Below are positions 10,057-35,389 of a stretch of 64,000 nt of DNA, one piece after another. The stretch is from Ignavibacteria bacterium (GTDB lineage: Bacteria > Bacteroidota > Ignavibacteria > Kapaibacteriales > Kapaibacteriaceae): NCBI GenBank assembly GCA_947495975.1, contig CANMBE010000007.1, forward strand, positions 62,001-126,000, given 5' to 3'. The stretch's first letter is position 1. Each line of letters begins with the position of its first letter. The position numbers and the translations under genes are program-made. Below the pieces are notes generated by a model. The model made no database searches and was not told the origin of the DNA. It saw only the letters and a list, made by a program, of their open reading frames with translations.

Positions 10057-10261
10057 AATTGTTCACCATCTCCTGTAACTTATTTAACATCCTGATGTTG
10101 TTAACTGTTGGAGTAAAGAAAACTGTGCGGTTAACCCTGAAAGAAAGCTGTCACTTGTGGGAACCGAAGCATTGATTTCTTTGCTATTTTAGAGAGGCTA
10201 GCAATGGGTAGCCACAAACTTGTCATCTATTCTCTTTCTTATTACAAATTGGAGTAAGTCC
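10057..10261 (+). promoter_or_regulatory. Leader region of the 4.5-kb surface-protein gene
   Basis: 205 bases without a gene. A good ribosome-binding site GGAG (10251-10254) lies eight bases before ATG 10262. An AT-rich block around 10175-10195 (TTTGCTATTTTAG) could hold a -10/-7 element but does not match TAnnTTTG exactly. The length suggests a long 5' UTR or complex promoter for a highly expressed gene. Confidence 0.35.
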
Positions 10262-13200
10262 ATGAGACTTGTTTCTAACAGAATGAAAACAGCAATTGCC
10301 GTCCTCTTGATGGTTATAGCTGGTCTTGGTGTTGTCAACGCACAGACTACTGAGAAGCGTGGCACGATGGTGCTCACCGAAGGCCGCCGCTACATGGTAG
10401 CATTTCCTCAAGTGCAGGCAAGCCCTACTGAGAAGCCGATGCCGCAGCCTATGCAGCTGCTCGTGTCTTCGAAGACAAAAACAACTTTTCGTATTCAAAC
10501 TCCTGCCGGAATAAATGATGCAGCGAAGATGGATAAGGAATTCACTGTAGAAGCAAATAAGGTACTTAAGGTACCTATTTCAACTGCCTACATGAACACT
10601 GAGTCTGAGGCACGCCGTGGATACGGAATCTTGATTACATCCAAGAAGCCAATCTCAGTTACAACCTATCAAGCGTGGCAAGGTAACGGCGAAATGGCTC
10701 GTCACCTTCCTGTTGAAGGATGGGGAAAGAACTACTACACAATGAACTTCTATCAGGATCGCTACGGCAATAGCTCAGGCTATAAGTATCGTCCGGGACA
10801 GATCCTCATCATTGCAGATAAAGACAACACCGTTGTTTCATACACACCAACAGTTGATACTGAGGGTGGCGTTGAAGCGCCGAGTGTTCGGAAGGGTGCA
10901 ACTCAGACCGTAACACTTGAAAAGGGCGAAACCTTCCTTATCAAGTCAAAGATTAATGAACTAGAGAATAAAGAGTGGACAACTGACCTTACGAGCACAT
11001 GGATCCGTTCTAACAAGCCAGTAGGCGTTGTTTCGGGTCACGTGAAGGTTGCTATCATGCGCTACCCAGACGTGCTTCCTCCAACAGGAAACTTTGCGGC
11101 AGAAGCTCACTTCGTACGTAACAACGTTCACGATGCTATGCTTCCTCTCGAAATGTCGGGCAAGCGGTTCGTCACAACACCGTGCAAGTACACACCTACG
11201 CGCGTTGTTGGTCAAGCATCTATTGAATTTGGAATTGATGATGACCGCGGTGATGTTGTTCGTGTTGTAGGTCTAGAAGATGGAACAACAGTTAAGGCAA
11301 TGCGCCAAGATGGTACAGGCCTAATGAATAAGTTCACCCTCAAAAAGGGTGAGACTCGCCTTGAAACAGCACTAGAAGTAGCAACGTATTGGGAATCAGA
11401 CAAGCCGATCCTTATGGGTCAGTATGGCAAGTCATATGCAAAGATCCTACCTCCAACAAACGCTCAAGGTGGCAAGGATATAGAAGATGCTCAAGGACAC
11501 CCAACTGTTGAGTCGGGTATGCCTATGCTCCAATATGTTCCATCAGTTGATCGCTGGGTAGAATATGCAGCGTTTTATGCTCCAGAAGGCATGGATAACT
11601 TCTTCAATATCGTATTCAAAGCTTCTGAAATTGGCAAGATCAAAGTAGACGGACGCTCGCTCACATCGGTCTTTGGTGGTGCAATGCGCCTATTGAAGGG
11701 TACTGAGTTCGCATATATCTGCACACCAGTTGGAAGCGGTGACCACGTTGTTGAGTCAACCGATCCAGCAGCCCGTTGGGTTGCTTGGAACTATGGTTCC
11801 TTGGATGGTCTACAGCAAGGTCGTGCTTATGGCACACCGGTATCTGTTGACATGACGATCCCTTGTGATGACTCACTTGCAGTAATAGAAGAAATTGTCT
11901 GCGGCAACGTTGAAGGTAGAGGCAACATCCTCCCAGAAAACACATCATGTGGTTCGATCTTCGCTGTTTATGCAGAAGATTTGAACAACTACGAGCTCAC
12001 TGTTGATGAGAGTTTCAATAGTGGAGACAAGAATGTTACGTTCCAAGTAAAGGTTCTCGACAAGACAAAGGATGCAACAGCAACTGTTAAAGTTGTTTCA
12101 CGCTCTGGCAAGTTTGTTGAGAAGACATACACATACGTAGCGGACAAGATTAGCTGGACGCCAGCAAAGCTTGACTTCGGAACAATCGCATTCAATACTC
12201 CAACAACTCTGACATTCACACTGAAGAATGAAAAGGCTGATCGTCCGGTCATCATTCGTAAAATTAGCGTGATCACTCATGATCAGGTGTTTGTTTGCAA
12301 CCCAACTGGACCATTCCAACTTGGACCTTCCGAAACACGTGATATCACAGTGACAGCTACAATTCAAACGGCACCACTTGTTGTAGATACAGTGCTTGTT
12401 GAGCTTTCTTGCTATGACCAGAAGACAGTTGAACTTCGTGTACGCGGTGAAGAACCTAAAATCTACGTGAGTGATGTTGACTGGGGTGTAATTCCAGCAA
12501 GCTCACCTGGTATTGAGCGCGTAGTTGAAATCCGCAATGGAAGCCGTGTAAATCTTATACTTACAGGTTACCAACAGTCGTTGTTGGATGGCACCGGAAA
12601 CTTCTTTGATCCAGTTACAATGGATGGTTCAGCGCTTAGCACTGCCTTCCCTCTAACCATTCAAGCCAATGGGAAGTACGAGTTCAAAGTAACATACAGC
12701 CCTAAAGGTGCTATTAGCGTACCTCACCGTGTAGACGTACCGTTCTACTCAAATGCAACGGTTGTTGACTCTATAGCAATATTAATCGGTAAGGGTAATG
12801 ACGTACAACTTGCGGCCTACGCAACACCATGGGTAGAGCGCGTCATTGACGTAATCCAAACAAATCAAGGCATTGCGCAGTACACACAGAAAGTCACATT
12901 CGAAAACCTCGGTGATCAACCTGTGACATACGCAGCACCACAATTGCGTGGTGTTGATGCTTCCAACTTTGTGATTGTTGACAATGGTAATGCTGGTTCA
13001 TTCCCAATCCAGCTTGTTGGTGGCGGAAACAACCAATCACGTTACATCACGGTTGCCTTCATTCCAACGGAGCTTCCAAACCGTGCAGGAGAGCGTAACA
13101 ACTACAAAGCCGAGCTCTTCTTCCCTGCAACAGCGCAGAACGGTGACGTGAAGGAAGTGAGAGTTACATTGAATGGTACTGCGTGGCAGCCACAAGTGAA

Positions 13201-14761
13201 GGGTGCTGACCTCGACTTCCCAGGTACAATGAATGTTGGTGATGCAGCTCAAGTGCTAACAATCCCAATCTTCAATGAGCATTATCTCGGTGCTTCTAAC
13301 CCAACATCAGGCAACCAAGCTGGTACGTACGATGTTGTGATTACCGGAATAACAATCACAGATGTTGCAACGAAGTTTGAAATGTTGAATGCGCCAACTC
13401 CGCAAAATCCTTGGATCATTAGGCCAGGCGATGCACCGATGGATCTACAAGTTCGCTTTGACCCATCAATGTCAGGCAATTTCTCTTCTCCATACGTCAT
13501 CACAACCAATGTTGGTACACTTGGCCAAGCCACATACCAGCCTGCTTACAATATCACTGCTCGTGTTCAAGGTGGAGACTTCTCGGTAACTGGTGATGCA
13601 GGCGATCAGTATGTTTATAATTCGACAGCATTGGTTATCAATGTAACGCACACAGAAAACCAAACGGTTCGATTTAACATTGGTCAACCAACTGGCGCAG
13701 ATGCTGGCCGCTTCTTAATCGAAGAACAATTCATCGATGTAGCTCCGGGCAAGACAGGCGTTGTTAAGGTTACGTTTACTCCAGACTTTGTTACGAAGCT
13801 TTCTGGTAATCAGACAAACCTTCAGAATGCAGCTGATCAGTGGACAATGAAGGCCAAGGCACAAGTTGTAATGTGGCGCGCCGGCATGTTCACAGCAGAT
13901 GTAGAGTTCACAGATGATCGTAATGCAACGAAGAAGCAAGTAGCTACGGTTTCTGGTAATGGCTTATTCTTAGAGACAACGAATCTCATAAAGGATAACT
14001 ACAATGTTGAAGCTGGTAAGAATATTGACATCCCAGTTGAACTGAACGCAATTCCTGAGGCACTTGATGCAGTTGGTGTTACAGAGCTTCGTGTTCGTCT
14101 TAGCTACGATCCTAAGCTTGTAAGACCACGCAGCAATCCAAGTGACATCATAACTGCTGGTACTCAGATTGATGGTTGGACAGTGCTGAAGGTTGATAAG
14201 TTCGGCGCACCTAACGATGCAGCAAACTCATTGGAGATCGACATTGCTGATCTTCGTGCAACTCCAGTTGCGCTCCGTAATGTTAACGTTCCATTGTTCA
14301 AGGTAAAGTTTGATGCGTTCCTCGACAAGGGCAAGAGTGGGAACTTCGTCTCACCATTGAACATCTACACATACATCGTAGACTTTAACAACTCTGGTGA
14401 GCGCCAAGACTACGTAGTGTTCCGCGACATTCCTGGCAAGATCACAGTAACACTCCCATGTGCTACTACAACTCGCCTTGTGTCTCTTGGAGCGGTGCCG
14501 TATCAGATTGCGCCAATGCGTCCTAACCCAGTAGCGAACTCTGGAATTATCAGCTATTCAATTGGTCTAAGTGCTGATACGCGCATTGTACTCTATAACA
14601 GCATGGGTGATGAGATTCAAACTCTTCTCAACGAAAAGGTTGCAGCCGGTTCGTACGAGATGACGATTGACTTTACTACGCTCTCTAGCGGTACTTACTT
14701 CTACCGTGTTGTTTCTGGTCCGTTCACAAGTGAACTCCAGTCAGTCTCAGTAATCAAATAG
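10262..14761 (+). CDS. 1499-residue T9SS surface protein, IgGFc-binding-like
   Basis: Signal peptide from ATG 10262 (MRLVSNRMKTAIAVLL...VNAQ); this start is preferred to one 14 codons earlier because of the GGAG ribosome site. Residues about 30-530 are the IgGFc-binding-like domain with TEGRRYMVAFPQVQASP, GYGILITSKKPISV, WIRSNKPVGVVSGHV and NNVHDAMLPLEMSGKR. Residues about 630-1240 carry several ASH/choice-of-anchor-D modules (KLDFGTIAFNTP, DVDWGVIPASSPG, DLDFPGTMNVGDA). A cohesin-like segment (about 1250-1390, ending FRDIPGKITV) follows. The last 85 residues are a canonical type A T9SS sorting domain (MRPNPVANSG, ending SGTYFYRVV...VSVIK). It stands alone between a long leader and a strong terminator, which suggests an abundant surface-layer or matrix protein. 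The N-terminal half closely matches the protein at 26569. Confidence 0.85.
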   Translation: MRLVSNRMKTAIAVLLMVIAGLGVVNAQTTEKRGTMVLTEGRRYMVAFPQVQASPTEKPMPQPMQLLVSSKTKTTFRIQTPAGINDAAKMDKEFTVEANKVLKVPISTAYMNTESEARRGYGILITSKKPISVTTYQAWQGNGEMARHLPVEGWGKNYYTMNFYQDRYGNSSGYKYRPGQILIIADKDNTVVSYTPTVDTEGGVEAPSVRKGATQTVTLEKGETFLIKSKINELENKEWTTDLTSTWIRSNKPVGVVSGHVKVAIMRYPDVLPPTGNFAAEAHFVRNNVHDAMLPLEMSGKRFVTTPCKYTPTRVVGQASIEFGIDDDRGDVVRVVGLEDGTTVKAMRQDGTGLMNKFTLKKGETRLETALEVATYWESDKPILMGQYGKSYAKILPPTNAQGGKDIEDAQGHPTVESGMPMLQYVPSVDRWVEYAAFYAPEGMDNFFNIVFKASEIGKIKVDGRSLTSVFGGAMRLLKGTEFAYICTPVGSGDHVVESTDPAARWVAWNYGSLDGLQQGRAYGTPVSVDMTIPCDDSLAVIEEIVCGNVEGRGNILPENTSCGSIFAVYAEDLNNYELTVDESFNSGDKNVTFQVKVLDKTKDATATVKVVSRSGKFVEKTYTYVADKISWTPAKLDFGTIAFNTPTTLTFTLKNEKADRPVIIRKISVITHDQVFVCNPTGPFQLGPSETRDITVTATIQTAPLVVDTVLVELSCYDQKTVELRVRGEEPKIYVSDVDWGVIPASSPGIERVVEIRNGSRVNLILTGYQQSLLDGTGNFFDPVTMDGSALSTAFPLTIQANGKYEFKVTYSPKGAISVPHRVDVPFYSNATVVDSIAILIGKGNDVQLAAYATPWVERVIDVIQTNQGIAQYTQKVTFENLGDQPVTYAAPQLRGVDASNFVIVDNGNAGSFPIQLVGGGNNQSRYITVAFIPTELPNRAGERNNYKAELFFPATAQNGDVKEVRVTLNGTAWQPQVKGADLDFPGTMNVGDAAQVLTIPIFNEHYLGASNPTSGNQAGTYDVVITGITITDVATKFEMLNAPTPQNPWIIRPGDAPMDLQVRFDPSMSGNFSSPYVITTNVGTLGQATYQPAYNITARVQGGDFSVTGDAGDQYVYNSTALVINVTHTENQTVRFNIGQPTGADAGRFLIEEQFIDVAPGKTGVVKVTFTPDFVTKLSGNQTNLQNAADQWTMKAKAQVVMWRAGMFTADVEFTDDRNATKKQVATVSGNGLFLETTNLIKDNYNVEAGKNIDIPVELNAIPEALDAVGVTELRVRLSYDPKLVRPRSNPSDIITAGTQIDGWTVLKVDKFGAPNDAANSLEIDIADLRATPVALRNVNVPLFKVKFDAFLDKGKSGNFVSPLNIYTYIVDFNNSGERQDYVVFRDIPGKITVTLPCATTTRLVSLGAVPYQIAPMRPNPVANSGIISYSIGLSADTRIVLYNSMGDEIQTLLNEKVAAGSYEMTIDFTTLSSGTYFYRVVSGPFTSELQSVSVIK

Positions 14762-18483: not shown

Positions 18484-19959
18484 ATGCCATCGTTGCGTCC
18501 CATATCGTTGATACCTCACATCCGATCAATTCTGCTTGTGATTCTCGCCACATTCATTGGCTTTTGTCCAGTTGATTTGGAGGGGGCTCGCCAAAAGCCA
18601 AAAAAGAAGACCACGCAGACGGTACGAAAAAAGGGCAGTTCAAAGTCCCGAGGCGCGAGTAGAAAGAAGAGCCGTAAGCGGAGGAACGTTCGCGTACGGA
18701 TTGCTCCGATCACAGCGCTCACGGTTCTGCACGAAAGAGAACTTGGACCTGGTATTCGCTATCTGCAGTATCGGTCCAACGGGTCGCGAGCAGTAATTGT
18801 CCACGTCCTGTCAATGGATCGCACAATCCCTGGTAATGCTCTTAGGCTCATTAAGGGTGAAGATCATGCGGTGGGTCTCGAGCGATTGGGTGATATGGCT
18901 CTACGCTATGATTCCACAAGTGACAACGAAATGTATGGAGTGGTGAACGGGAATTTTTGGCGAGCCGTAAGAAATACGATGATCGGTCCGTGTGTGATAG
19001 ATGGAGAAGTTGTTGAATTCAACCCATATAAGCATTGGACGAGTGTATTCATTGATGTGCAAAACAAAGTATTCATCGATACAATTGCATTGTCGGGAAC
19101 AGCAAAAGTTGGCGGCAGATCATATCAATTGTCATCAGTAAACAGACGTAGCGATACCGGTGTGGTAGTCTACAATTCATACGGTGGTGATGCAATTCCT
19201 CATGTGAGCTCAAAAGAAATTGAGAACGCTTTTCATGAAGCTGTAAAAGATTCTGTATTTCAGGAGAGTGATTCCACTGAGCTCGCCTTTACAACTGAAC
19301 TATTGAAGAATGAGATTGCCCGAGCTCAACGAGAGGTAAATGTAGAATATCCAATGGTGAAGGTTTGTGTGCGATACTTGCGTTCACCATCGGTGAATGT
19401 TCCGTTTCCATGCCAGGTCTTAAGCGTAGACACGGGCACAGTGAAAATGCCGTTACGCGGCGCAGTGGTTTCGTTTTCGCGGGCGGCGCTCAATGGGAAT
19501 TGGCCACGACTTGGCGACACCCTTACGCTGACGTATTCAACAAGCAAACACAATGCAACACGGTTTATGAATGCAGTTTGTGGAACACCACGGCTTGTGC
19601 GAAATGGCGTAGCCAAGCATGAGGCAAAAATGGAAGGCAGCACAGGACGTAGGTTTATCCAGGACAACCTAGCTCGCACTGCGCTGGGAGTTGATCGAAG
19701 TGGCAATCGAATTGTCCTCGCCGCTATTCGGCCGGACAGGCCTGAGGATGGCACGCACGGAGCAACACTTCAGCAAACCGCACAGATCATGGCGCTCCTT
19801 GGTTGTTATGACGCAATGAATCTTGATGGCGGGGGATCGGCAGGTATGGTGGTAGGCAAAGACCACGTATTCTATGACGGTGTTGATCCGCTTACCAGAC
19901 GGCTTGGCCTAGGAGTGGGGATGGTAAAGCTCTCCAAGATTCTTCGCGGACCTCGCTAG
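18484..19959 (+). CDS. Phosphodiester glycosidase (NAGPA/DUF2233) family exported protein
   Basis: A 491-residue protein with a hydrophobic N-terminus (about residues 10-30, SILLVILATFIGFCPV), then an exceptionally basic linker (about 35-70, dominated by Lys/Arg/Ser). The phosphodiester-glycosidase fold related to GlcNAc-1-phosphodiester alpha-N-acetylglucosaminidase follows: VNGNFWRAV, ALGVDRSGNRIVLAAI and the C-terminal signature NLDGGGSAGMVV. Between them is an inserted segment of about 150 residues, unusual for the family. The start ATG 18484 lies seven bases after AATATTTG, a near match to the -7 box. The stop codon shares the palindrome CTAG with the stop of namZ on the opposite strand. 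Probably acts on envelope or extracellular glycan phosphodiesters; substrate unknown. Confidence 0.75.
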   Translation: MPSLRPISLIPHIRSILLVILATFIGFCPVDLEGARQKPKKKTTQTVRKKGSSKSRGASRKKSRKRRNVRVRIAPITALTVLHERELGPGIRYLQYRSNGSRAVIVHVLSMDRTIPGNALRLIKGEDHAVGLERLGDMALRYDSTSDNEMYGVVNGNFWRAVRNTMIGPCVIDGEVVEFNPYKHWTSVFIDVQNKVFIDTIALSGTAKVGGRSYQLSSVNRRSDTGVVVYNSYGGDAIPHVSSKEIENAFHEAVKDSVFQESDSTELAFTTELLKNEIARAQREVNVEYPMVKVCVRYLRSPSVNVPFPCQVLSVDTGTVKMPLRGAVVSFSRAALNGNWPRLGDTLTLTYSTSKHNATRFMNAVCGTPRLVRNGVAKHEAKMEGSTGRRFIQDNLARTALGVDRSGNRIVLAAIRPDRPEDGTHGATLQQTAQIMALLGCYDAMNLDGGGSAGMVVGKDHVFYDGVDPLTRRLGLGVGMVKLSKILRGPR

Positions 19960-21191
19960 TCATATAACAAGTAGCGCTTGCGTTTCTCAACGAAGAGCGC
20001 AAGTCCTTGCCGGCCGATTCGCTCAAGTTCAGCAAGGGGCTTTCCTTTTACAATGGCAATTACGAGCTCTGAAGATCCACACGCTTTTGCGAACATCTTT
20101 CCGTGTTTCGTTTGCAACAATGTATCAGGAAAAGAATCTGGACGTAGCAATCGTAAGCGCCACAACAACGCGAGTGCTGCTTGGTAAGGCTTCCACGATC
20201 TCTCCATGCTGACGTAATATCCATCGCAAATGATGTTCGCATATTTTGCGGAGGACGGTTGAAATCGTGCGCGAGAAACATTGACGCCATTTCGGCGACA
20301 GTGAATTTCTAATAGAGTATCACGAGGAAAGTCCGGCGACCCTATCACTGTAAAGGGGCTTGCTGTTCCCATTCCAATGCTGCAGGGCCCTAGCTCTCCA
20401 AGAAGTCCCGTAATCGCATATCCACGCACCGCATGTATACTGGGAATGTTTGGAGACGTTGGGTACCAACGAAGCCCGGTTTCTTCCCATATCATGTTTC
20501 TCTTCCAGCGCTTACAGCGAATAACGGTGAGTGAGCACACACGGGAGATGCCAAGTGAATCTTTTGAGAGCCAACCTTCGCCATTGGCCATGGTAGCTAG
20601 TTCACCCATGGTAAAGCCATGCACATATGGGACGGGGATTCGTCCAATGAATGAGCGAAGCGTATCATCCGGCAAATTCCCATCAACAACATGTCCGCCT
20701 AGTGGGTTTGGCCTATCAAGTATCATGCATGGTACGCTCCATTGAGCACAGGCCTCCATCACTTCGATCATTGTTGACACATAGGTGTAAGATCGTACGC
20801 CAATGTCTTGCATGTCTACAACAACCACATCCGCGCCTGACAACATGGAGCGACCAGGTCTGCGCAGTGGCCCGTATAATGACACTGCTGGTACATGCAT
20901 CACGGTATCATCAGCAACGGCTTTGCCTGCTGGAATCACACCAAAATATCCGTGCTCTGGTGCCAAGAGTCGCAGTGTAGTAACATCGGTACGAGCAAGA
21001 AACTCTTCTGCTGTTGATGTACCCCTTTGTGTGCGTGCAGCCGCATGAGTGACAAGAACAACTTTCTTCCCTCGCAGCAATGCGAATTCTGTATCAATGA
21101 GATTATCGATTCCACATTTTACTTGCGCACTCGCAACAGTCATGGTGAACTGAAGAATGAGTAAAATCAACGGCATCACTATACTTTTCAT
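19956..21191 (-). CDS. namZ: Exo-beta-N-acetylmuramidase NamZ (DUF1343)
   Basis: The DUF1343 family includes NamZ, which releases terminal MurNAc from peptidoglycan glycans. The 411-residue protein has a signal peptide (cleavage after ASAQ, about residue 23) and the family motifs VLVTHAAARTQRGTST, LLAPEHGYFGV, DVVVVDMQDIGVRSYTYVSTM, ILDRPNPLGG, IPVPYVHGFTMGELA, LRWYPTSPNIPS and LGELGPCSIGMGTASPF. It overlaps xerD by four bases (ATGA) and ends in the CTAG shared with the convergent glycosidase gene. Together with cytoplasmic NagZ at 43705 it fits muropeptide turnover. Assignment to the family is firm; the precise activity is from the family. Confidence 0.88.
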   Translation of the reverse strand: MKSIVMPLILLILQFTMTVASAQVKCGIDNLIDTEFALLRGKKVVLVTHAAARTQRGTSTAEEFLARTDVTTLRLLAPEHGYFGVIPAGKAVADDTVMHVPAVSLYGPLRRPGRSMLSGADVVVVDMQDIGVRSYTYVSTMIEVMEACAQWSVPCMILDRPNPLGGHVVDGNLPDDTLRSFIGRIPVPYVHGFTMGELATMANGEGWLSKDSLGISRVCSLTVIRCKRWKRNMIWEETGLRWYPTSPNIPSIHAVRGYAITGLLGELGPCSIGMGTASPFTVIGSPDFPRDTLLEIHCRRNGVNVSRARFQPSSAKYANIICDGYYVSMERSWKPYQAALALLWRLRLLRPDSFPDTLLQTKHGKMFAKACGSSELVIAIVKGKPLAELERIGRQGLALFVEKRKRYLLYD

Positions 21192-25905: not shown

Positions 25906-26595
25906 ATGGATCATATCTACATTGAAAGCTGCGTGGCAACAAATGAAACCGCGCCACTTGATTCTGACGCACTGCGGCATATTGCTGCGCTGCGCCTACG
26001 TGATGGCGAACAGGTGAGAGTGCTCAATGGTAAGGGTCTTGTTGCTGCGTGCACGATTGAGCGGCTAGGCTCTCAGGTGACACTTAGGCTGGGTGAACGA
26101 GAAGAACGCCCTAAGCCGATTGCCCTTACCCTTGTGATGTCGGTCCTCGACAGCCGAGACAGATTTGAGTTTGCCCTAGAAAAGGCCACAGAGCTTGGTA
26201 TGACCACATTTGTGCCTCTGCTTGCAGAGCGGGCACAACATCATCGTACAAGCAACGCGCGTCTGGTTGCCAAGGCCATAGCCGCAATTACCCAGTGTGG
26301 AGTTGCGTGGCTACCGGAGATTGCCGCTCCGGTGTCGATTGATGATTTCCCGTGGGCAACATGTACTATCGTGGGTGATGAAAATGGGTCCACTCCATCA
26401 GATATAGGCGCCGATGTCTGCGTTGTTGTTGGGCCAGAAGGCGATTTTTCTGATCGTGAGAAGCAGATACTCAATGAAGACCCACGAACGCTGCGTTGGG
26501 CAGTAGGTAACAACCGACTACGTGCCGAGACGGCTGCAATAGCGTTGATTGCCAATGTTGTTCGTGGTCTACCTCGTAACGATTATTCGAGTTGA
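25906..26595 (+). CDS. rsmE: 16S rRNA m3U1498 methyltransferase
   Basis: RsmE methylates N3 of U1498 in 16S rRNA. The 229-residue SPOUT-class protein starts at ATG 25906 (MDHIYIES), with an N-terminal PUA-like domain (HIAALRLRDGEQVRVLNGKG) and the SPOUT knot motifs ALEKATELGMTTFVPLLAER, VVVGPEGDFSDREKQIL and GNNRLRAETAAIALIANV. The C-terminus overlaps by 27 bases the end of the convergent surface-protein gene. Complete. Confidence 0.92.
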   Translation: MDHIYIESCVATNETAPLDSDALRHIAALRLRDGEQVRVLNGKGLVAACTIERLGSQVTLRLGEREERPKPIALTLVMSVLDSRDRFEFALEKATELGMTTFVPLLAERAQHHRTSNARLVAKAIAAITQCGVAWLPEIAAPVSIDDFPWATCTIVGDENGSTPSDIGADVCVVVGPEGDFSDREKQILNEDPRTLRWAVGNNRLRAETAAIALIANVVRGLPRNDYSS

Positions 26596-29034
26596 GGCCT
26601 GACGCTCGTTGCACCTAACACGTATGGTGTACGCACCAGATGGTAGGGCCGTTGGCGTCAATGATATAGGCTGGGGTGAGCTATCCACATGTTCACTCTG
26701 AGATGCTACTACTCTCCCGGCAGCATCAACGTATTCAATAGAACACGCCCCACGCTCAATTGTTGAAAGCAGAAGCACGGCCTCACCCGTTATTGGCTGA
26801 GGAGTCACTGAGAAGGACAGTCCTGGAGTTTCTGTTTCGCCGCTGACGGAGGTAGTGGTGTCGCCAATTGAACGGACTCTATACTCTGTGAGCTTCCAGT
26901 CGGCACAGTTCGTGCGGACAACCAGGGTGTCTATCACAGATACCTCAGACAATAGCCTGCACGAAACAAGCACCTTCATGCTCTTGCCTGGACTCAAAAG
27001 GAACGGAAGAGAAACGCCACTGACCAAGAATTCGGGTTGATTATGCGCCATTGACACTTGCGTGATCACAACTGAGCTGTCGGCAAGTGAATGAGTAATC
27101 GTAAGCGTGTCTGTCACCGTTACAAGACTCGGCTGTCTACCAAAATCATGCTTGGATTTGGATGCCAGAACGGTATCAGGAAAGAAGTGTACTACGCGAT
27201 CGATGTAATCACCTGAACTACTTACAGTTCGCACTGTTGCGGTGGCTGTTTTCTTTGGGTCTAAAATCTTGACTCTATAGACCCCAAGAGTATCACCATC
27301 GCGGAAACCTTCATCGATGATAAGTCGTGCATTGTTGAGATCTAAGGCGTGGATCATTCGGATGGACCCACATCCCGAAGAAGTAACCCACGATGTGACC
27401 TTTGTATAATCGCAGCCTTCTGCTTCAGCGCTGTCATAGAGCGAGTCACCAGAACACGGCGTTGTGAGATCGATCCCAACTGCAGTGCCATAGGCTCGTC
27501 CTAGCTGCAGACCGTCTAGCGATGCGTAATTCCATGCCATCCATCGCACGCTATCGGAGAGAGATTCGATGGTGTGATTGCCAGCAGCCTGTTGAGTGCG
27601 GACGTATGCATACTCAGTTCCGTTAAGTGTCCGTATCGCTCGGCCATAAGCAGTTTGAAGGGGCTTGCCATCTATGAGAATAGATGAGGATTCGCTCATC
27701 TTGAATACGACATTCAAAAAGGCGTCCATTCCTTCTGGCGATGAAAATGTTGCATGCGTGATCCACCTATTTGTAGATGGAACCATCTGCAACATCGGCA
27801 TACCGGCTTCAATATTTGGAAAGGCTTGTGTTTGGTCGTTGACCAGGCCTCCTGCTTTGATTTCTTCCGCCCAGAACTTTGCGTAGGACTTGCCATATTG
27901 TCCAACCAATACAGGTGCACTTGTAATCCAATACGCAGCAGATTCCTGCGACGGTACGATCCGAGATTCTCCCTTTTGAAGCGTGAAGACATTCGTATTT
28001 CCAGGACCATCAACGCGACGTTTTTGCACTAGTGTGTTGTTCTCAAGTGCAATGAAACGAATCACATCCCCGCGATCATCTTCGATGCCATTAGTAGGCG
28101 ACGATTGACCCACAATTCGGCTTTGATTATACAGCAAAGGGACTGTAACAAAGGCCGTTCCAGCGAGCGTTGTTGGATACATCACATCGTGCACGTTATT
28201 GCGCACGAAGTGAAGATCTAGAACAAATGGGCCGGAGGGAGGCAAGAAGTCTGGCATGCGTGCTATGGCACCCTTTGTGTGCCCAGATATCACGCCGATT
28301 GGCTTTGTTGATGTTATATAGGTCGCAGAAAGATCCGTTGAGCTATCACGAAACTTCAAGGGATCGATCTTTGACTTAATCAAAAACGTCTCGCCGCGCA
28401 TGAGTGTGACGGTCTGAGAAGCCCCCTTCAAAACAGATTGGGCATCAATGCCGCCCTCTGTTTCAGCCGTTGGACGATACGTTACCACAGAGCTGTCAGA
28501 TCCTGCAATAACGAGGATTTGTGCCGGACGGTGCTCGTATCTAGCTTCGGTACCGAATCGGTCCTGATAAAAGTTCATGGAGTAATATGATGTGCCCCAA
28601 GAGTCAGTCGGCAGATGTTGCGCCGTCTCCCCATTGCCTTGCCATGCCTGTTGTGTTGCAACGGAGAACGGTGTGTCACCTGTAATACTGATGCCGTAAC
28701 CTCTTCGCGACTCCGAATCAACGTTCATGTAGGCTGTAGAGACAGATACCATGAGAACAACCCCAGGAACTATCGAGTGCACTTGGTCTATTCGCGGCAC
28801 ATCTGTGTTAGTGGCTGCAGTTGTGATCCGAACTCTTGTAAAGTATCGCGACGTCAGCAGTAACATCATCGGTTGAGGAAGGGGCGGCTCTGAGGGAGAT
28901 GCCCAGACCTGAGGGAAGGCTACCACATACCGTCGGCCTTCCGAGATCATCTTGGTGCCTCGGTTTGTCTGGCCATATAGATGGCATGAAATGGCTATGA
29001 AAGCCACGACAATGGCTAAACATCGAATATTCAA
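26569..29034 (-). CDS. T9SS surface protein, IgGFc-binding-like (short paralogue)
   Basis: An 821-residue exported protein whose N-terminal about 650 residues parallel the 10262-14761 product almost block for block (SEGRRYVVAFPQVWASP, GYGISITGDTPFSV, YITSTKPIGVISGHTKGA, NNVHDVMYP, EDDRGDVIRF, VGQYGKSYAKF, WMAWNYASLDGLQLGRAYG). It has only one ASH-like module (about 640-720, KHDFGRQPSLVTVTDT) instead of several, then a T9SS tail (SFSVTPQPITGEAVL ... PSGAYTIRVR...IIVTR). The start is TTG 29034: the signal peptide (NIRCLAIVVAFIAISCHLYGQ) begins there, AAGGGG lies nine bases upstream, and no in-frame ATG precedes it. It is the last gene of the TonB-receptor-nuclease cluster, 81 bases after the nuclease. 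Confidence 0.82.
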   Translation of the reverse strand: MNIRCLAIVVAFIAISCHLYGQTNRGTKMISEGRRYVVAFPQVWASPSEPPLPQPMMLLLTSRYFTRVRITTAATNTDVPRIDQVHSIVPGVVLMVSVSTAYMNVDSESRRGYGISITGDTPFSVATQQAWQGNGETAQHLPTDSWGTSYYSMNFYQDRFGTEARYEHRPAQILVIAGSDSSVVTYRPTAETEGGIDAQSVLKGASQTVTLMRGETFLIKSKIDPLKFRDSSTDLSATYITSTKPIGVISGHTKGAIARMPDFLPPSGPFVLDLHFVRNNVHDVMYPTTLAGTAFVTVPLLYNQSRIVGQSSPTNGIEDDRGDVIRFIALENNTLVQKRRVDGPGNTNVFTLQKGESRIVPSQESAAYWITSAPVLVGQYGKSYAKFWAEEIKAGGLVNDQTQAFPNIEAGMPMLQMVPSTNRWITHATFSSPEGMDAFLNVVFKMSESSSILIDGKPLQTAYGRAIRTLNGTEYAYVRTQQAAGNHTIESLSDSVRWMAWNYASLDGLQLGRAYGTAVGIDLTTPCSGDSLYDSAEAEGCDYTKVTSWVTSSGCGSIRMIHALDLNNARLIIDEGFRDGDTLGVYRVKILDPKKTATATVRTVSSSGDYIDRVVHFFPDTVLASKSKHDFGRQPSLVTVTDTLTITHSLADSSVVITQVSMAHNQPEFLVSGVSLPFLLSPGKSMKVLVSCRLLSEVSVIDTLVVRTNCADWKLTEYRVRSIGDTTTSVSGETETPGLSFSVTPQPITGEAVLLLSTIERGACSIEYVDAAGRVVASQSEHVDSSPQPISLTPTALPSGAYTIRVRCNERQASTRIIVTR

Positions 29035-29115
29035 GACGGACCCCTTGTGTTTCTGTTCGCCATATCAACAACATCAGGTAAAGAAGGTTACAACCAGGTG
29101 CCCCATACAAGGCAA

Positions 29116-30900
29116 CTATTTGTAGATCCTGACAGGTATTGATGAGAAAGTGCCATTGAGCCATACCATCAAATGATAGCTCCCACTTGATAATGCAGTT
29201 ACAGGAAGTATCACTACTCGAACAGATGGAGCAACAGTCTCGTTCAATAAAGTTGTTGACTGACCTGTGTTGTCAATCAGATCCACACGAAGCATGCCGC
29301 TTTGGTCTACAATGATCTCCGCCATACCGCTGGTGGACATTGGATTGGGTGATACTCGCACGAATGTAGAGGGTGTTGATTCTTCATCTACAGACACCTC
29401 TCCGTCAATTGCAAGTCGCATTGTTACCGGACGGTGGTCAGAAACCGTGCTAGAATATGATGGCATATATCGCTCTGGTGATTCCACGTAGGTGCGATAG
29501 TGCTCATCTACAAGTTCATTGGAGATAATGATGTGATCCAAGAATGAGCGGTTAAATCCAACATATGATGAAAGCCCGTCCTTTTCGAGTGGGGCAGTTG
29601 TTGCAAGCCAGTTCTGTATATCGTTTACAAATGATAGATAACATGATGGTAGGAGTGAGTCAACGTTTGTACCAAGCATCCTATCGTTGAAGTCACCTAT
29701 CACAATAACGTTACTATCGGCATAAAAATCGCGGAGGTATGCGTGAAATGTCTCAGCATCTGTTTTGCGACGATTGTAATCAACCACGGCGGTAGCAGAA
29801 TCGGTTGCCTTAGCATGGAGATTGAATACAATGACGCGTTTCGTAGATGTGCCTATGCGCGCGTCAAATGTCATGCGAAACGGGAAGCGTCCGTTCGCCC
29901 ATGCCTGTGCTCCGCCATTCACGGCGAGGCCTGTTGATACAGGCGTAATGGTTTGCGTATTGTAGATAAAGGCAAGCTTCTGCTCTGATGTGATGTCATT
30001 TGCGAAGAAACGCGAATACGATCCTTGAATTGAATCACTTAACAGGCGCAGTGCATCGTCTGTTACAATTTCTTGCAATGCGTATATGTCTGCGCGTACG
30101 CTATCCATCACCTGACGAATACGAGTGCGCTGCAAGTTCTTGTTCGTTGGCCCACGTGTTGAGTCAGCCCATCCAAACCATTCAAGATTCCACGTGGTAA
30201 GGTCGAGTGTACGATTCTTACTCACTGTGTCTAGTTCGATTGGGGGAAGCCCGATATCTTGTGCTAGACGTGGCAATATCTGGTACGCACCACGGAACTG
30301 ACTCACAACACCGATAATGTCTACCTCATCTGTTGGAATATCGAGTGAATTTGTTCCGATTTCACATGACCGGTCTATTCGAATTACGATGTCATTGCCA
30401 AGATTGTCGAGGGCATTAAAACTCGTATTCGCTTGAAACTTGCCGGTCTCAATAAAACGTAAACGCCGCGTTTTCACAAGTTGCGCCTCAACGCCCTCGC
30501 CGATGAGAGGAATAGAAAGGTTCTTTGCAATTGGCTCTACTCGAGCCGTTGGAATCACCGTAAAACGTAGGTCATTGCCATCAAGCTGTGTGAGCCCCGT
30601 ACCAGGAGCGCCAGTGCTCCCACCGAACTCTGCAAGCTTGCCACTTTCAACAACGACTGAATCGCCAATGCGTACCGCATTGCGCATGCTCTCATTGAAA
30701 ATTGCAATTCCACCTGTTTTGTCTTGTAGGTAGGTAACGTTCGAAAGTTGGGTAGAAGAGGTAACCCGACCAGCAATCTTTGATACGAGTGTGCCAAACT
30801 CTTGCCGCTTAGCATCAGCAATAGAAATTGGGTTTTGTGCAAGTAGACTCGTTGAATAAAATGCAACGAGTAATGCAAGAGTGCAGAATCGAACGTTCAT
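29116..30900 (-). CDS. Secreted endonuclease/exonuclease/phosphatase with OB domain and T9SS tail
   Basis: 594 residues from ATG 30900 (signal peptide MNVRFCTLALLVAFYSTSLLAQ). An N-terminal OB-fold-like domain (about 25-215: ISIADAKRQEFGTLVSKIAGRV, VTYLQDKTGGIAIFN) is followed by an endonuclease/exonuclease/phosphatase domain: TTWNLEWFGW, ALQEIV with the metal Glu, VFNLHAKAT, VIVIGDFNDR, LDHIIISNEL and VSDHRPVTM, i.e. the full DNase I-like active-site set. A T9SS type A domain (VRVSPNPMSTSG ... SSGSYHLMVW...IPVRIYK) ends it. It is 24 bases downstream of the DUF4397 lipoprotein and the Oar-like receptor. Likely an extracellular nuclease or phosphodiesterase; nucleic acid as substrate is inferred. 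Confidence 0.85.
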   Translation of the reverse strand: MNVRFCTLALLVAFYSTSLLAQNPISIADAKRQEFGTLVSKIAGRVTSSTQLSNVTYLQDKTGGIAIFNESMRNAVRIGDSVVVESGKLAEFGGSTGAPGTGLTQLDGNDLRFTVIPTARVEPIAKNLSIPLIGEGVEAQLVKTRRLRFIETGKFQANTSFNALDNLGNDIVIRIDRSCEIGTNSLDIPTDEVDIIGVVSQFRGAYQILPRLAQDIGLPPIELDTVSKNRTLDLTTWNLEWFGWADSTRGPTNKNLQRTRIRQVMDSVRADIYALQEIVTDDALRLLSDSIQGSYSRFFANDITSEQKLAFIYNTQTITPVSTGLAVNGGAQAWANGRFPFRMTFDARIGTSTKRVIVFNLHAKATDSATAVVDYNRRKTDAETFHAYLRDFYADSNVIVIGDFNDRMLGTNVDSLLPSCYLSFVNDIQNWLATTAPLEKDGLSSYVGFNRSFLDHIIISNELVDEHYRTYVESPERYMPSYSSTVSDHRPVTMRLAIDGEVSVDEESTPSTFVRVSPNPMSTSGMAEIIVDQSGMLRVDLIDNTGQSTTLLNETVAPSVRVVILPVTALSSGSYHLMVWLNGTFSSIPVRIYK

Positions 30901-30924
30901 GATGATAGCCAATAAAAAAGTGTT

Positions 30925-31605
30925 CTAAAAAATCTTCAATGTGATGATGTCAATGCTAGGAGGCTCTGCATCATGCGTGTAGAGCATGTATGAGCGTGCC
31001 GCATCGATTTTGACGTTTGGTAGTGTTGCAAGAACGTTTGCTGTTCCACCTTCGCGGATCTCAAAGGAATACGTTCCGGGTAGAATGCCTGTGTATGTGA
31101 CGGAACTAAACCCAGGCTCGAATTCTTCAGGCAGTAGTCGCGATCCTCCAGTAACCCATACTTCAAGGAAGTATCCTTTGTCAACAGATTCTGCCATGTG
31201 TGTGAAACGAATGACAGACGAGGTAGAATTTTGTGGAAGTACGGTGTCTTGAATTTCGCGACGAAACTCAACCAGACTTGTGGTGTCTCCGCGGACAAAA
31301 AGTATTACTCTCCCTCCGCCGCCTAGAGTGTAACGCAAATTGTCACGGAGGATCTCGTTTATTGTGCCAATAGTAAATGTAACTGGTCTGCCCGCCGCTA
31401 CCATTGAATAGTCAGAGGACTCGCCACGGTTTTCATCAAGCACGGTAGCACTGTCAATTGTGATGCGTAGGACTGGCAGATTCTGCGTAACGTTTACAAT
31501 GCGCACACCGGCTTGTTCGGGCGTCGGAAATGATAAAACTCCTGTGTCACACCCGTACACCAATAAAAGGGGAGCAATGATTCTCATGAGGCGGCATAGT
31601 TTCAT
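30925..31605 (-). CDS. DUF4397-like surface lipoprotein
   Basis: 226 residues with a lipoprotein signal peptide (MRIIAPLLLVYGC; Cys19 as lipidation site) and two Ig-like repeats of DUF4397 style: ARVRxxN-like GVRIVNVTQNLPVLRITIDSATVL, and VIRFTHMAESVDKGYFLEVWV followed by SSVTYTGILPGTYSFEIREGGTANVLATLPNVKI. ATG 31605 lies 12 bases after the receptor stop, and the spacer contains the octamer AAGGGGCT. Its place directly behind a TonB receptor suggests an accessory substrate-binding or anchoring lipoprotein, analogous in position to SusD though unrelated in sequence. Confidence 0.75.
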   Translation of the reverse strand: MKLCRLMRIIAPLLLVYGCDTGVLSFPTPEQAGVRIVNVTQNLPVLRITIDSATVLDENRGESSDYSMVAAGRPVTFTIGTINEILRDNLRYTLGGGGRVILFVRGDTTSLVEFRREIQDTVLPQNSTSSVIRFTHMAESVDKGYFLEVWVTGGSRLLPEEFEPGFSSVTYTGILPGTYSFEIREGGTANVLATLPNVKIDAARSYMLYTHDAEPPSIDIITLKIF

Positions 31606-31617
31606 CTGTGTAGCCCC

Positions 31618-34600
31618 TTAGAAGGTGTAGCGCATGCCAAGTTGCATACGCCAGCGTGAGTAGAAGTTGTCCGTGTTGTATACGCCGGGCTTGTTATTCG
31701 TAACGGGCTCTACATAGGTCATGCGGAGCCTGCCTTGAGTATCGAATGGTTTGCCATTATTATCCAACACAAGCCCGAACAGATTGGAACTTTGAAAGTC
31801 AACATAACGCTGTAATCCCCAATCGGCGTTAAGCAGGTTCAGTACGTTTTGTATGTCGAGCGTGAATTGCACGCTATGTGTAGAGAAGGCGGGGAATTCC
31901 TGCTGAATTTTTAGATCGAGTTGATTGATCCATGGCTCGCGAAGAGCATTGCGGGGCAGGACCCTACCTTGGTATTCTTTGAGTACCGGATTGGCGTCAA
32001 TGAGAGACATGATCTGCGACCATATCTGATCAGGAGACCGCAGGTCTGTATTGTCAGTAGGCGCTGGAATCACAATCTTGGTGTTAAGATCTTCATTACG
32101 TGGAATGTAGACAAGATCGTTTCCACCAATGGCGTTGTCTCCGTTATAGTCCTGCGCATACGACATCGAATACGGACGCCCAGAATTTCCAGAGTAGAAG
32201 AGGCCGAACGAAGTCCACAGTCCTTTGCTCCACGTAATGCGATACGATCCACTCACTGACACGCGATGAAGAAAATCAAAGTTTGAAATTCCAACAGTAG
32301 CATTGTTTGGATCAATCACATCAGTGCTGGTCCACTGCGACGATGCAGTTGCTGCAGTTGAAGAGTTGAGGTCTTGTGTTCTACCATACGTGTACTGCAA
32401 CATCGCACTAAGGCCGGGAATGATGCCGTTTGATTCGTCAATCTTGAGTTGACCTGAGATACTGTATTGCTGACCTTCTGATCTGCTTCTCATAAGTATC
32501 ACTTGTGTGAATCGCTTGTTGGCCAATGAATCTGCAGAGCCCCCTGCATAAAGTGGACGACCATCGAGCGGGGACACGCCAACACTTGTATCGCCATTTC
32601 TGACAAAGGTGAGGTTAGACCGTGTCAGATTCATGTTCGTGTAGTCAACCTGGTTGAGAAACCTACCGTACATGCCTTCGAGTGTAAAGACAATGCCCTT
32701 CATCAGTCGGATATCTGTTGCAAGCGTGGAACGCCAAACCTGAGGCATTTTGAAATCTTTATCGGTGATGTTTATTGCCGATGTGTTTATGGGGCTTCCA
32801 GGATATCCCGTATCACCCGGACGTGGCGCAGGTACACGTAGATCCCACTGCACAGGCACACCGTTATATGAAATCGCATTAGAAAGATTATTGCCACCGA
32901 GTTCAGCACGAAACAGATCCACGCCGGTGTTTGAATATTGATTGGATAGCCATACGCCTGCAACCCGGCCAGTGAATACACCAGTTCCACCACGAATCTG
33001 CCACGTTTTGTTGCCTGATACATCGTAGTTGAAGCCAACGCGAGGCGAGAACAGCAATGTACCCGATGGCACTTCGCTTGTTGACCTCCCAGGAAAGGCC
33101 TGAGCAAATGCGGGATTCTCAAACGGCGTGGACAGGAAGAATGGTGCGTCAATGCGCAGACCTCCTGTTAGACGCAGGTCCTCTTGCACTTGCCATTCAT
33201 CTTGCACGTATACGCCAAGCTGAATCATGTTCCATGCTGCTCGTGGAGTTTGATTGCCACCTGTTACACTTCCATTGGCATAACTCACACGGTAATAATT
33301 TGCTCGGCCAGCTTCATATTCATCAACTGACGAAAACTGATAGCTACCGTAATAGTCTTGAATGAAGAGATTGTTGAATCGCGAAAATTCATTGTGCGTT
33401 CCGGCAGTAAGAGTGTGATCTCCAAGAAACCACGTAAGGTCATCCGTTAAGGCAACTATTGTTTGATCCAGAGCATTGGCTTGTGAGCTGCGCTCAGGGC
33501 CAAGAATAACGTTTGTTCCAGATCCTACTTGGATGCGCACTTCTGGGAATGGAATTGCATTCCCATTGCCATCTGCTGGGAGAATTCTAGCATCATTTGT
33601 TTGAGTGAAAGACACACGAAGCTCATTTGTGAGCTCTTGTGAGAAGACACTATTCCATTGTAGAACCGCTTGATTGTTCATACTCTCAAACGTATTCATT
33701 CGGCTCGTGAGACTATAGTTTACGTTGTTTCGAAGCAAGTTTCGGTCTTGAATGCCATAGGTGAAGTTGTGTCGGAACTGTATTTTGTTTTGTTCGTCTA
33801 CATTATAATCTAACCGCGCAATTATATTTATCGTGTTGTTCTTCGTGTTCGTAGTACCGTACTGACCTGCATCATAACCATATTTAGAAAGTGTAATGGC
33901 CTTGATTCGGTCAAGCTCGCCAGAACTCACAGGAAAGTTGTTCAGGGCAGATGGATCATCGAGGGCAACTTCGATTGGTGTTGAGCGGAGCCTACCCTCG
34001 GCGGTAATATGAAAGAGAAGCTTGTCCTTAACGATAGGTCCCCCCACACGTCCACCAAACTGATAGTCATAGAAGTTTTCAAAGGGGCGCCGTGCTGCAT
34101 CTGGACTAGGCCCAACAAGATCTTGGTTGCGACCAAAGAAAAAGACTGACCCGTGAAGGTCGTTTGTGCCACCGCGCGTTATGGCGTTAATAAGGCCACC
34201 TGTAAAGCCGCTTTGACGAATATCGTATGGCGAAACATTCACACGGATACGCTCGATCGCATCAAGCGATAGGAAGTTCGAGTTTGCCTGCGAGCCTGCC
34301 GTGCCGGCAGCACCAAGCGCAAAAACATCATTTGCAACAGCGCCGTCGATCTGAAAATTATTGAAGCGAGAATTCACGCCCATGATGCTGAGCCCTTGCA
34401 GCCCATCACTTCCGGCGGTCTGAGTTTGGTTTGCGTATGGATTCATGCGCGCGATGTCGCTTATGCTTCGATTGATTGTTGGCGCAGCACTGATTGCAGT
34501 TTCATCAATCACGGACCCAGAGCCCGTTCTACTCGCATCGAACGAGGCATCTTTCTCTGCTGTAACCACAACTTCTTTTTGATTCGAAGAGGATATGGAG

Positions 34601-34923
34601 AGACGAACATTAACCGTAGTTGCATCGCCCACGTCTACACTCACGTCCCTTGTAGTATCAGGGCGGTATCTAACAAAGGTGGCTACGAGCGTGTAGGTAC
34701 CAGGTCGGACGCCTTTAATGAGGTAGCGGCCTTTGCTCTTGGAGTAGGTTCCGTAAACAGCCCCCGTAGTTGCGGAGATAATCTTGATGGTGGCACCAAC
34801 AAGTAGCGCCTCACTACTAACAGTGCCCGTGACTGACCCCGTGGTTACCCCTTGGGGAAACACGGACGCAGTGGCAACAACGAAGAACAACAAACTCCAG
34901 ATAACAACGGCGCAATGTTTCAT
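31618..34923 (-). CDS. Oar-like TonB-dependent receptor
   Basis: An outer-membrane receptor of 1101 residues from ATG 34923 (signal peptide MKHCAVVIWSLLFFVVATASVFPQ). It has an N-terminal carboxypeptidase-regulatory-like beta-sandwich (VTGTVSSEALLVGATIKI ... GRYLIKGVRPGTYTLVATF), then the plug domain (ISDIARMNPYANQTQ, GVNSRFNNFQIDGAVANDVF, GFTGGLINAITRGGTNDLHG) and a large beta-barrel ending NFYSRWRMQLGMRYTF with the terminal Phe. The architecture is that of Oar/CarboxypepD_reg TonB receptors. It is first in an apparent operon with a lipoprotein, a secreted nuclease and a surface protein. The frame extends 28 codons upstream, but that part crosses the promoter region and is not counted. Confidence 0.9.
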   Translation of the reverse strand: MKHCAVVIWSLLFFVVATASVFPQGVTTGSVTGTVSSEALLVGATIKIISATTGAVYGTYSKSKGRYLIKGVRPGTYTLVATFVRYRPDTTRDVSVDVGDATTVNVRLSISSSNQKEVVVTAEKDASFDASRTGSGSVIDETAISAAPTINRSISDIARMNPYANQTQTAGSDGLQGLSIMGVNSRFNNFQIDGAVANDVFALGAAGTAGSQANSNFLSLDAIERIRVNVSPYDIRQSGFTGGLINAITRGGTNDLHGSVFFFGRNQDLVGPSPDAARRPFENFYDYQFGGRVGGPIVKDKLLFHITAEGRLRSTPIEVALDDPSALNNFPVSSGELDRIKAITLSKYGYDAGQYGTTNTKNNTINIIARLDYNVDEQNKIQFRHNFTYGIQDRNLLRNNVNYSLTSRMNTFESMNNQAVLQWNSVFSQELTNELRVSFTQTNDARILPADGNGNAIPFPEVRIQVGSGTNVILGPERSSQANALDQTIVALTDDLTWFLGDHTLTAGTHNEFSRFNNLFIQDYYGSYQFSSVDEYEAGRANYYRVSYANGSVTGGNQTPRAAWNMIQLGVYVQDEWQVQEDLRLTGGLRIDAPFFLSTPFENPAFAQAFPGRSTSEVPSGTLLFSPRVGFNYDVSGNKTWQIRGGTGVFTGRVAGVWLSNQYSNTGVDLFRAELGGNNLSNAISYNGVPVQWDLRVPAPRPGDTGYPGSPINTSAINITDKDFKMPQVWRSTLATDIRLMKGIVFTLEGMYGRFLNQVDYTNMNLTRSNLTFVRNGDTSVGVSPLDGRPLYAGGSADSLANKRFTQVILMRSRSEGQQYSISGQLKIDESNGIIPGLSAMLQYTYGRTQDLNSSTAATASSQWTSTDVIDPNNATVGISNFDFLHRVSVSGSYRITWSKGLWTSFGLFYSGNSGRPYSMSYAQDYNGDNAIGGNDLVYIPRNEDLNTKIVIPAPTDNTDLRSPDQIWSQIMSLIDANPVLKEYQGRVLPRNALREPWINQLDLKIQQEFPAFSTHSVQFTLDIQNVLNLLNADWGLQRYVDFQSSNLFGLVLDNNGKPFDTQGRLRMTYVEPVTNNKPGVYNTDNFYSRWRMQLGMRYTF

Positions 34924-34953
34924 GACGTCCTGAGTGCAAGCAGAGTGGGCTGC

Positions 34954-34961
34954 CAAAACTA
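34954..34961 (-). promoter_or_regulatory. Candidate -7 box for the TonB-receptor operon
   Basis: On the minus strand the sequence reads TAGTTTTG, an exact match to the Bacteroidota consensus TAnnTTTG, 30 bases before ATG 34923. No clear TTG -33 element is found at the expected distance. Confidence 0.35.
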
Positions 34962-34972
34962 CGGGTTTTCCG

Positions 34973-35001
34973 TTGCGCTGAGGGAAGCCCCCGTATATTT
35001 G
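34973..35001 (+). promoter_or_regulatory. Candidate Bacteroidota-type promoter, near-leaderless
   Basis: TTG (34973-34975), an 18-base spacer, and TATATTTG (34994-35001) match the -33/-7 pattern TTG-N19-TAnnTTTG. The -7 box ends four bases before ATG 35006, so transcription would begin at or inside the start codon. Confidence 0.5.
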
Positions 35002-35005
35002 TTTC

Positions 35006-35389
35006 ATGACAGAGGCAGGTTCTTTTTCTCAGGTTTCGGCACGGTCAGCCTTACACCTTGCGTCACTCTTCGATCTTTCGACGCGAGCGGCTGAATATGA
35101 CCCGGCTAAACCAATTCTCAATGCTGCCCTTCTTAGTGTGATGGGGCGGCTTAAGGTGTTGTGCTTATGCGTGTTACGTCCGTCTAATGGACGGTTTGCA
35201 TGTGTTCTATCAAAGGGTTTGCCTGTAGAATTATTGATGGCGAATGTGCAAACCGCATTCAACGTCTTGGCACGATTGTTACTCCCGCTCACGCAAATCC
35301 TCACATCAATTCACGTCGAACTCCGAGAATTCTCGGACAATGCCAATCTCACATACGACACATCACTTGCAGTAGTAAAGGTCCAATGA
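35006..35389 (+). CDS. Small GAF-like domain protein
   Basis: 127 residues. Residues about 15-100 (LHLASLFDLSTRAAEYDPAKPILNAALLSVMGRLKV...) follow the pattern of an N-terminal GAF-type domain in which a helix 'LFDLSTR' precedes 'ILNAALLSVMGRL' and the core strands. No output domain (HD-GYP, phosphatase, histidine kinase or GGDEF) follows. The stop overlaps the ATG of the RNA methyltransferase gene (ATGA), so the two are translationally coupled. I cannot tell whether it is an independent small sensor or the remnant of a larger regulator. The GAF assignment is from pattern recognition only. Confidence 0.55.
   Translation: MTEAGSFSQVSARSALHLASLFDLSTRAAEYDPAKPILNAALLSVMGRLKVLCLCVLRPSNGRFACVLSKGLPVELLMANVQTAFNVLARLLLPLTQILTSIHVELREFSDNANLTYDTSLAVVKVQ

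Follow-up and report, generated by a model that had tools for sequence, protein, structure and literature searches.

Why would a bacterium keep, in a single run of genes, an outer-membrane receptor, a lipoprotein, a putative surface nuclease and an adhesin? The question is raised by a locus in the window, by which we mean the whole analysed stretch of 64,000 nucleotides. Four genes follow one another there on the minus strand: a TonB receptor gene (31618..34923; the ORF is open from 35007, i.e. 31618-35007, with a likely start at 34923), a DUF4397 lipoprotein gene (30925..31605, start 31605), a gene for an enzyme combining DUF5689 with a DNase I-like (EEP) domain (29116..30900; ORF from a TTG at 30912, likely ATG at 30900) and a gene for an IgGFc_binding surface protein (26569..29034). 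With the starts 34923, 31605, 30900 and 29034, the gaps are 12, 24 and 81 bp, and the ORF coordinates thus bear out the preliminary description, which had presented the four genes as one closely spaced run. Promoter-like sites were at chance level in our scan (13 versus 11.6 +/- 3.6), and one promoter-like match on the minus strand (30929-30902) extends across the 24-bp gap. Terminator-like sites were above chance (13 versus 7.1 +/- 2.7), and the same scan placed none in the minus-strand intergenic gaps. The genome itself comprises 2.18 Mb in 24 contigs and is estimated to be 100% complete; its relatives found by sequence are mostly recorded as Ignavibacteria or Candidatus Kapaibacterium metagenome bins.

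Three of the four genes form a conserved unit

Of the 119 genomes of the order, 47 encode the enzyme, the window's genome included. In all 28 fetched loci holding both genes, the receptor lies upstream of the enzyme on the same strand at a distance of 666-973 bp, and this interval carries a DUF4397 gene in nearly all loci (weakly in L065, where the match sits inside a fused reading frame). The trio is collinear in 30 of the 46 genomes of the order that carry the enzyme and could be evaluated; these 30 (28 fetched loci, the window and G035) belong to three families. G090 was left out of the count because its contig ends in the gene. Linkage was found in 19/20 genomes of family f1, 8/8 of f3 and 3/3 of f9, and in none of f4 (0/3), f7 (0/9), f8 (0/2) and f10 (0/1). 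The f1 exception, G011, has kept the enzyme, with receptor and lipoprotein missing at the locus, while enzyme and receptor are jointly absent from G039 at the thresholds used. Over the order, 41 genomes have both genes, 6 the enzyme alone, 16 the receptor alone and 56 neither (Fisher 1.5e-12, a statistic that ignores phylogeny). The preliminary description had staked its operon on conserved gene order in relatives; given that receptor, lipoprotein and nuclease are collinear there, the order holds for three genes, and the conserved core consists of three genes, not four.

The gene that falls outside this unit is the adhesin. Its product matches IgGFc_binding (3.2e-39) and, weakly, Por_Secre_tail in Pfam. 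An IgGFc gene stands at the locus in three genomes (window, G080 and G076) and is absent from 16 evaluable relatives in which rsmE adjoins the enzyme; L049 and L064, not evaluable in this respect, were not counted. The genome of the window holds eight IgGFc members, of which this is one. We therefore rejected the adhesin as a member of the operon, where it had first been placed, its presence being confined to the window and two close relatives. It is a recent, lineage-specific addition, unlike the old receptor-enzyme link. G076 (L051:1724-9807) encodes about four IgGFc T9SS surface proteins in tandem, against one in the window, which represents a recent expansion. The window also encodes two further large IgGFc_binding surface proteins (2914-6903 and 10220-14761, both on the plus strand).

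The receptor-enzyme link extends beyond the order. In family f23, which belongs to another class, an enzyme homologue of about 1340 aa (DUF5689, EEP and T9SS tail), an arginine decarboxylase (speA) and a receptor are near neighbours in 4/4 loci; the receptor is of the Oar-like window type in three of them and of another type, that of a sister subfamily, in L195. Since this proximity recurs in another class, the link between receptor and enzyme is old. The arginine decarboxylase is a side observation: speA stands beside the DUF5689-EEP enzyme and receptor in L142, L194, L195 and L196, and in f3 such a gene adjoins the enzyme in L067 (L067:11117-13030).

These distributions bear on the idea that the enzyme's substrate is extracellular DNA from biofilms or phages (in dispersal, motility or defence), that the receptor imports something else and that a shared promoter serves regulation only. 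Enzyme homologues do occur without these receptors in f4, f7, f8, f10 and many other loci, and DUF5689-EEP enzymes are frequently T9SS proteins in whose stretch neither a window-type nor a flavobacterial-type receptor was found (such as L140 and L210), which indicates that the enzyme can work without the receptor. Conversely, 16 of the 57 genomes bearing a window-type receptor lack the enzyme. Such separate roles are nevertheless improbable, since gene order is strict and spacing tight in three families, receptor and enzyme are near each other in another class as well, and both are absent from G039.

The enzyme carries an intact DNase I-like active site

Pfam recognizes in the enzyme both Exo_endo_phos (6.4e-11) and DUF5689 (1.2e-10). 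The DUF5689 domain (30253..30780, minus strand) covers residues 45-220 of the 598-aa ORF, the EEP catalytic domain (29434..30195, minus strand) residues 240-493 and the putative C-terminal T9SS-type sorting tail (29119..29385, minus strand) approximately residues 510-598. N242, E281, H366, D407, N409, D492 and H493 are invariant in every covering row of the alignment (47-48 of 51 rows, which are not independent of each other), and the EEP catalytic set N, E, H, D/N and DH is fully kept in the window enzyme; we take the catalytic role of these residues to be that of their EEP family counterparts. The tail is below the Pfam and NCBIfam cut-offs, but the last ~90 residues match eight other proteins of the same genome, in which 88 Por_Secre_tail matches are found at E<=1e-3.

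The gene product had initially been described as a DNase I-like enzyme with an OB domain. The first part of this holds, and the supposed OB domain is DUF5689 according to Pfam. OB-fold models overlap the DUF5689 region weakly and below cut-off in the f23 and L203 relatives, among them an OB-fold nucleic-acid-binding model at 1e-5 to 1e-4 in f23. The DUF5689 match of the enzyme is itself weak and comes without DUF5017; in a profile comparison it aligned with flavobacterial DUF5689 proteins over 193 columns (E 2e-5, probability 77).

EEP folds also include lipid and inositol phosphatases. The domain might therefore cleave another phosphodiester (a phospholipid, an inositol phosphate or a cyclic nucleotide), the product of which the receptor would import. 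A search of solved structures by sequence gave no match to the enzyme, so that the substrate does not follow from sequence alone, and the AlphaFold model was poor (pLDDT 46.6) and unusable. We nonetheless regard this alternative as very improbable. In NCBIfam the top-scoring models belong to DNases (ExeM/NucH and ExoIII), though far below cut-off, and DUF5689 recurs elsewhere with PLD-like and non-specific endonuclease domains. The window enzyme resembles the ExeM/NucH extracellular DNases in that it is an EEP enzyme, predicted to be secreted, and has an additional domain at its N-terminus; it differs from them in having DUF5689 and a T9SS-type tail, and in scoring 34.9 bits against NF033681, for which the cut-off is 300.

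Receptor and lipoprotein set the unit apart from SusCD systems

The receptor combines CarboxypepD_reg, Plug and an OMP_b-brl_4 barrel (Pfam; OMP_b-brl_4 5.6e-59), which predicts an Oar-like TonB-dependent receptor. Its type presumably corresponds to that of Oar of Myxococcus xanthus, which has a role in intercellular signalling; we know of no nuclease neighbour of that gene. SusC/RagA models were absent from the receptor's NCBIfam matches, and OMP_b-brl_4 was best in Pfam.

The lipoprotein matches DUF4397 (1.8e-5), the window copy being below the curated cut-off and that of the relative L067 above it. In most lipoprotein rows, acidic residues come after a lipobox-like Cys. In the structural model (pLDDT 85.7) the protein folds into a double beta-sandwich, the signal helix being its sole non-beta element, and resembles the extracellular domains of PepT1 and PepT2 (Foldseek E down to 7e-10). 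The model thus points to a binding or scaffold fold and not to SusD; Pfam gave DUF4397 alone for this protein. The idea that DUF4397 proteins generally accompany Oar-like receptors was not supported, since f1 genomes contain many DUF4397 genes and few such receptors; the paralogous receptor of the window's own genome (L157) is followed by no DUF4397 profile match.

A kinship with SusCD-type units, as suggested in the preliminary description, does not hold in the strict sense. SusCD/PusCD loci (PMC8115612) likewise combine a TonB receptor, a lipoprotein and an exported hydrolase in one operon. In the window, however, SusD is missing, the receptor is Oar-like, the hydrolase is nuclease-like and no phosphate or sugar genes were found beside it. 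Membership was rejected because the DUF4397 lipoprotein is not SusD and the receptor is OMP_b-brl_4 and not SusC.

Even so, receptor, lipoprotein and hydrolase together follow the usual logic of nutrient acquisition, and DNA might simply be food: the surface nuclease would degrade extracellular DNA or RNA, and the receptor would import oligonucleotides, nucleotides or phosphate. A potent secreted DNase suits such a use better than gene uptake. Moreover, Flavobacterium johnsoniae has phosphate-induced SusCD-like/TonB clusters with phosphodiesterases as well as phosphate-induced extracellular nucleases, according to PMC8115612; the induced nucleases listed there are, however, EndA-type (pf04231) and not EEP/DUF5689. 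No phosphatase, 5'-nucleotidase, pst or pho gene was found among the scanned subset of window proteins, and transformation depends on the only DUF5689-receptor pair that has been examined by experiment (PMC8459023). A feeding role is thus somewhat unlikely. Should it hold, nucleic acids would join the polymers imported by TonB systems.

DUF5689 recurs beside TonB receptors and nuclease-type domains

The tested pair comes from Riemerella anatipestifer, in which RA0C_RS04915, a CarboxypepD_reg outer-membrane protein, and RA0C_RS04920, a DUF5689 protein, are encoded by neighbouring genes, both essential for natural transformation: deleting either one abolishes it. The authors proposed that DNA binds the DUF5689 protein RA0C_RS04920 and passes through RA0C_RS04915 (PMC8459023). 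A tonBA mutant of the same species shows lower transformation and no iron-uptake defect (PMC8383284). The type of the R. anatipestifer locus was assigned via domain architecture and adjacency.

Across the phylum, 134 of 296 genomes contain DUF5689. Three lots of DUF5689 loci, 60 in all, were retrieved, the first from the top of the ranking and the second from lower down (40 loci together); as they were chosen by DUF5689, the domain is present in all of them by construction. The long-type DUF5689 profile was found in 35 of the first 40 loci, and in 34 of these 35 a CarboxypepD_reg receptor lies at most 120 bp away, the single miss (L133) having DUF5689 and neither receptor nor EEP. An EEP-type gene stands within 253 bp in 23 of the 34 receptor-DUF5689 pairs (12/14 in the first lot, 11/20 in the second), with the family counts f27 4/4, f29 5/5, f50 2/2, f32 12/22 and f36 0/1. 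Ten of the 11 pairs without such a neighbour belong to genus g105. Among 13 EEP-type neighbours scanned with Pfam, 12 were PF19580. L135, an MFS protein, was left out of row set A1, and the L137 row of set A2 (887 aa), not a receptor, was replaced in A5. Flavobacterial-type genomes encode in two neighbouring genes what in the window is one polypeptide.

Other nuclease folds appear in similar company. An f50 cluster (L137:8028-16790) runs DUF5689, TonB receptor, EEP, DNA/RNA non-specific endonuclease, DUF5689. A third arrangement, seen in L138 (952-11953), L203, L206 and L207 (families f17, f12, f21 and f17, of the window's class), has a TonB receptor of yet another type flanked by a T9SS protein on one side and a PLD-like T9SS protein on the other. 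The PLD-like proteins carry an N-terminal DUF5689, which in L206 and L207 was over the cut-off in the phylum search and not listed in the later locus scan. In the third lot of 20 loci, profiles identified a receptor in eight (three f23 loci, L203, L206, L207 and, weakly, L199 and L211) and none in the other 12, so that a receptor is not obligatory. DUF5689 is thus found repeatedly in the company of TonB receptors and of nuclease-type domains that differ in fold, and these links fit DNA uptake as in natural transformation at least as well as nutrient or phosphate scavenging.

The unit of the window and the Riemerella pair are alike in that a gene for a CarboxypepD_reg outer-membrane beta-barrel stands close to a DUF5689 gene (PMC8459023). 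In the window, however, the small DUF4397 lipoprotein gene lies between the two, and DUF5689 is fused to EEP and lacks DUF5017, whereas the Riemerella protein is DUF5689-DUF5017 with no nuclease fusion. The receptor barrels also belong to different families: the profile alignment between the window receptor and the flavobacterial (Riemerella-type) one covers the CarboxypepD_reg domain alone, and orthology was rejected. We accordingly claim that the unit may work like the Riemerella pair and not that it belongs to that type.

The flavobacterial receptor profile matched 9 of the 119 genomes of the order, all in f2 and all representing a sister subfamily. The two receptor types are spread in a complementary manner (9 versus 57 genomes, no overlap), to which we gave no weight, as the nine matches are a sister subfamily found in four genera. 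In the five readable loci of these f2 genomes (L168-L172), no DUF5689 or adjacent EEP profile match was found; the surroundings of L167 are cut by the contig end and were left out.

A possible route for DNA across the outer membrane

Receptor, lipoprotein and nuclease seem to serve the handling of extracellular DNA and probably its import. From sequence comparison we infer DNA as the substrate, its passage through the receptor and its fate as follows. The unit would comprise the receptor, the lipoprotein and the surface nuclease, without the adhesin. The enzyme would leave the cell via the type IX system and be displayed on its surface, where the DUF5689 domain would bind extracellular DNA and the DNase I-like domain nick or trim it. 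Strands or fragments might then cross the TonB-energised Oar-like receptor into the periplasm, the DUF4397 lipoprotein aiding. In its mode of action the unit would resemble the Riemerella transformation pair, except that nuclease and DUF5689 form one protein. We tentatively prefer this picture, in which a TonB-driven unit would bind extracellular DNA, cut it and import it in a manner akin to the Riemerella receptor and DUF5689 protein, and judge its chances to be slightly short of even. An active surface DNase could, on the other hand, destroy transforming DNA.

Imported DNA could go on to ComEC in a cell lacking type IV pili. ComEC is encoded in the window's genome and also in 10/14 control genomes, so its presence discriminates little; it is presumably a feature shared with the Riemerella host. 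The T2SSE ATPase (PilB/PilT/GspE type) was not found in the window's genome by a search that was positive in 14/14 controls, which makes a pilus route for DNA unlikely there. We know of no member of the order that is transformable.

In open-licence PMC literature, where one transposon screen names proteins that bring DNA across the outer membrane of Bacteroidota lacking type IV pili, we found no description of the DUF5689-EEP fusion or of the trio. A broader proposal, which we consider rather doubtful, is that Bacteroidota in the broad sense possess a pilus-free outer-membrane DNA importer, a single machine that combines a TonB receptor with DUF5689 as DNA-binding module and with a nuclease generating the end by which the DNA enters. 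It would have been assembled at least three times: as neighbouring genes in flavobacterial-type genomes, where the EEP gene beside the Riemerella-type pair would be a missing surface nuclease of transformation; as a DUF5689-EEP fusion with an Oar-like receptor in Kapaibacteriales; and as a third receptor with a DUF5689-PLD protein in relatives of the same class. The question of how Bacteroidota without type IV pili move DNA across the outer membrane is concerned here, and the recurrent receptor-DUF5689-nuclease cluster, together with its natural fusion in the window's lineage, offers a concrete nuclease candidate and a gene set testable in tractable flavobacteria.

Finally, a NamZ gene (PF07075, formerly DUF1343) lies in the window at 19956-21191 on the minus strand, about 5 kb from the run of four genes. 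The NamZ family includes RA0C_RS09020, likewise essential for Riemerella transformation (PMC8459023); the nearness of the window's gene to that run is probably a coincidence.
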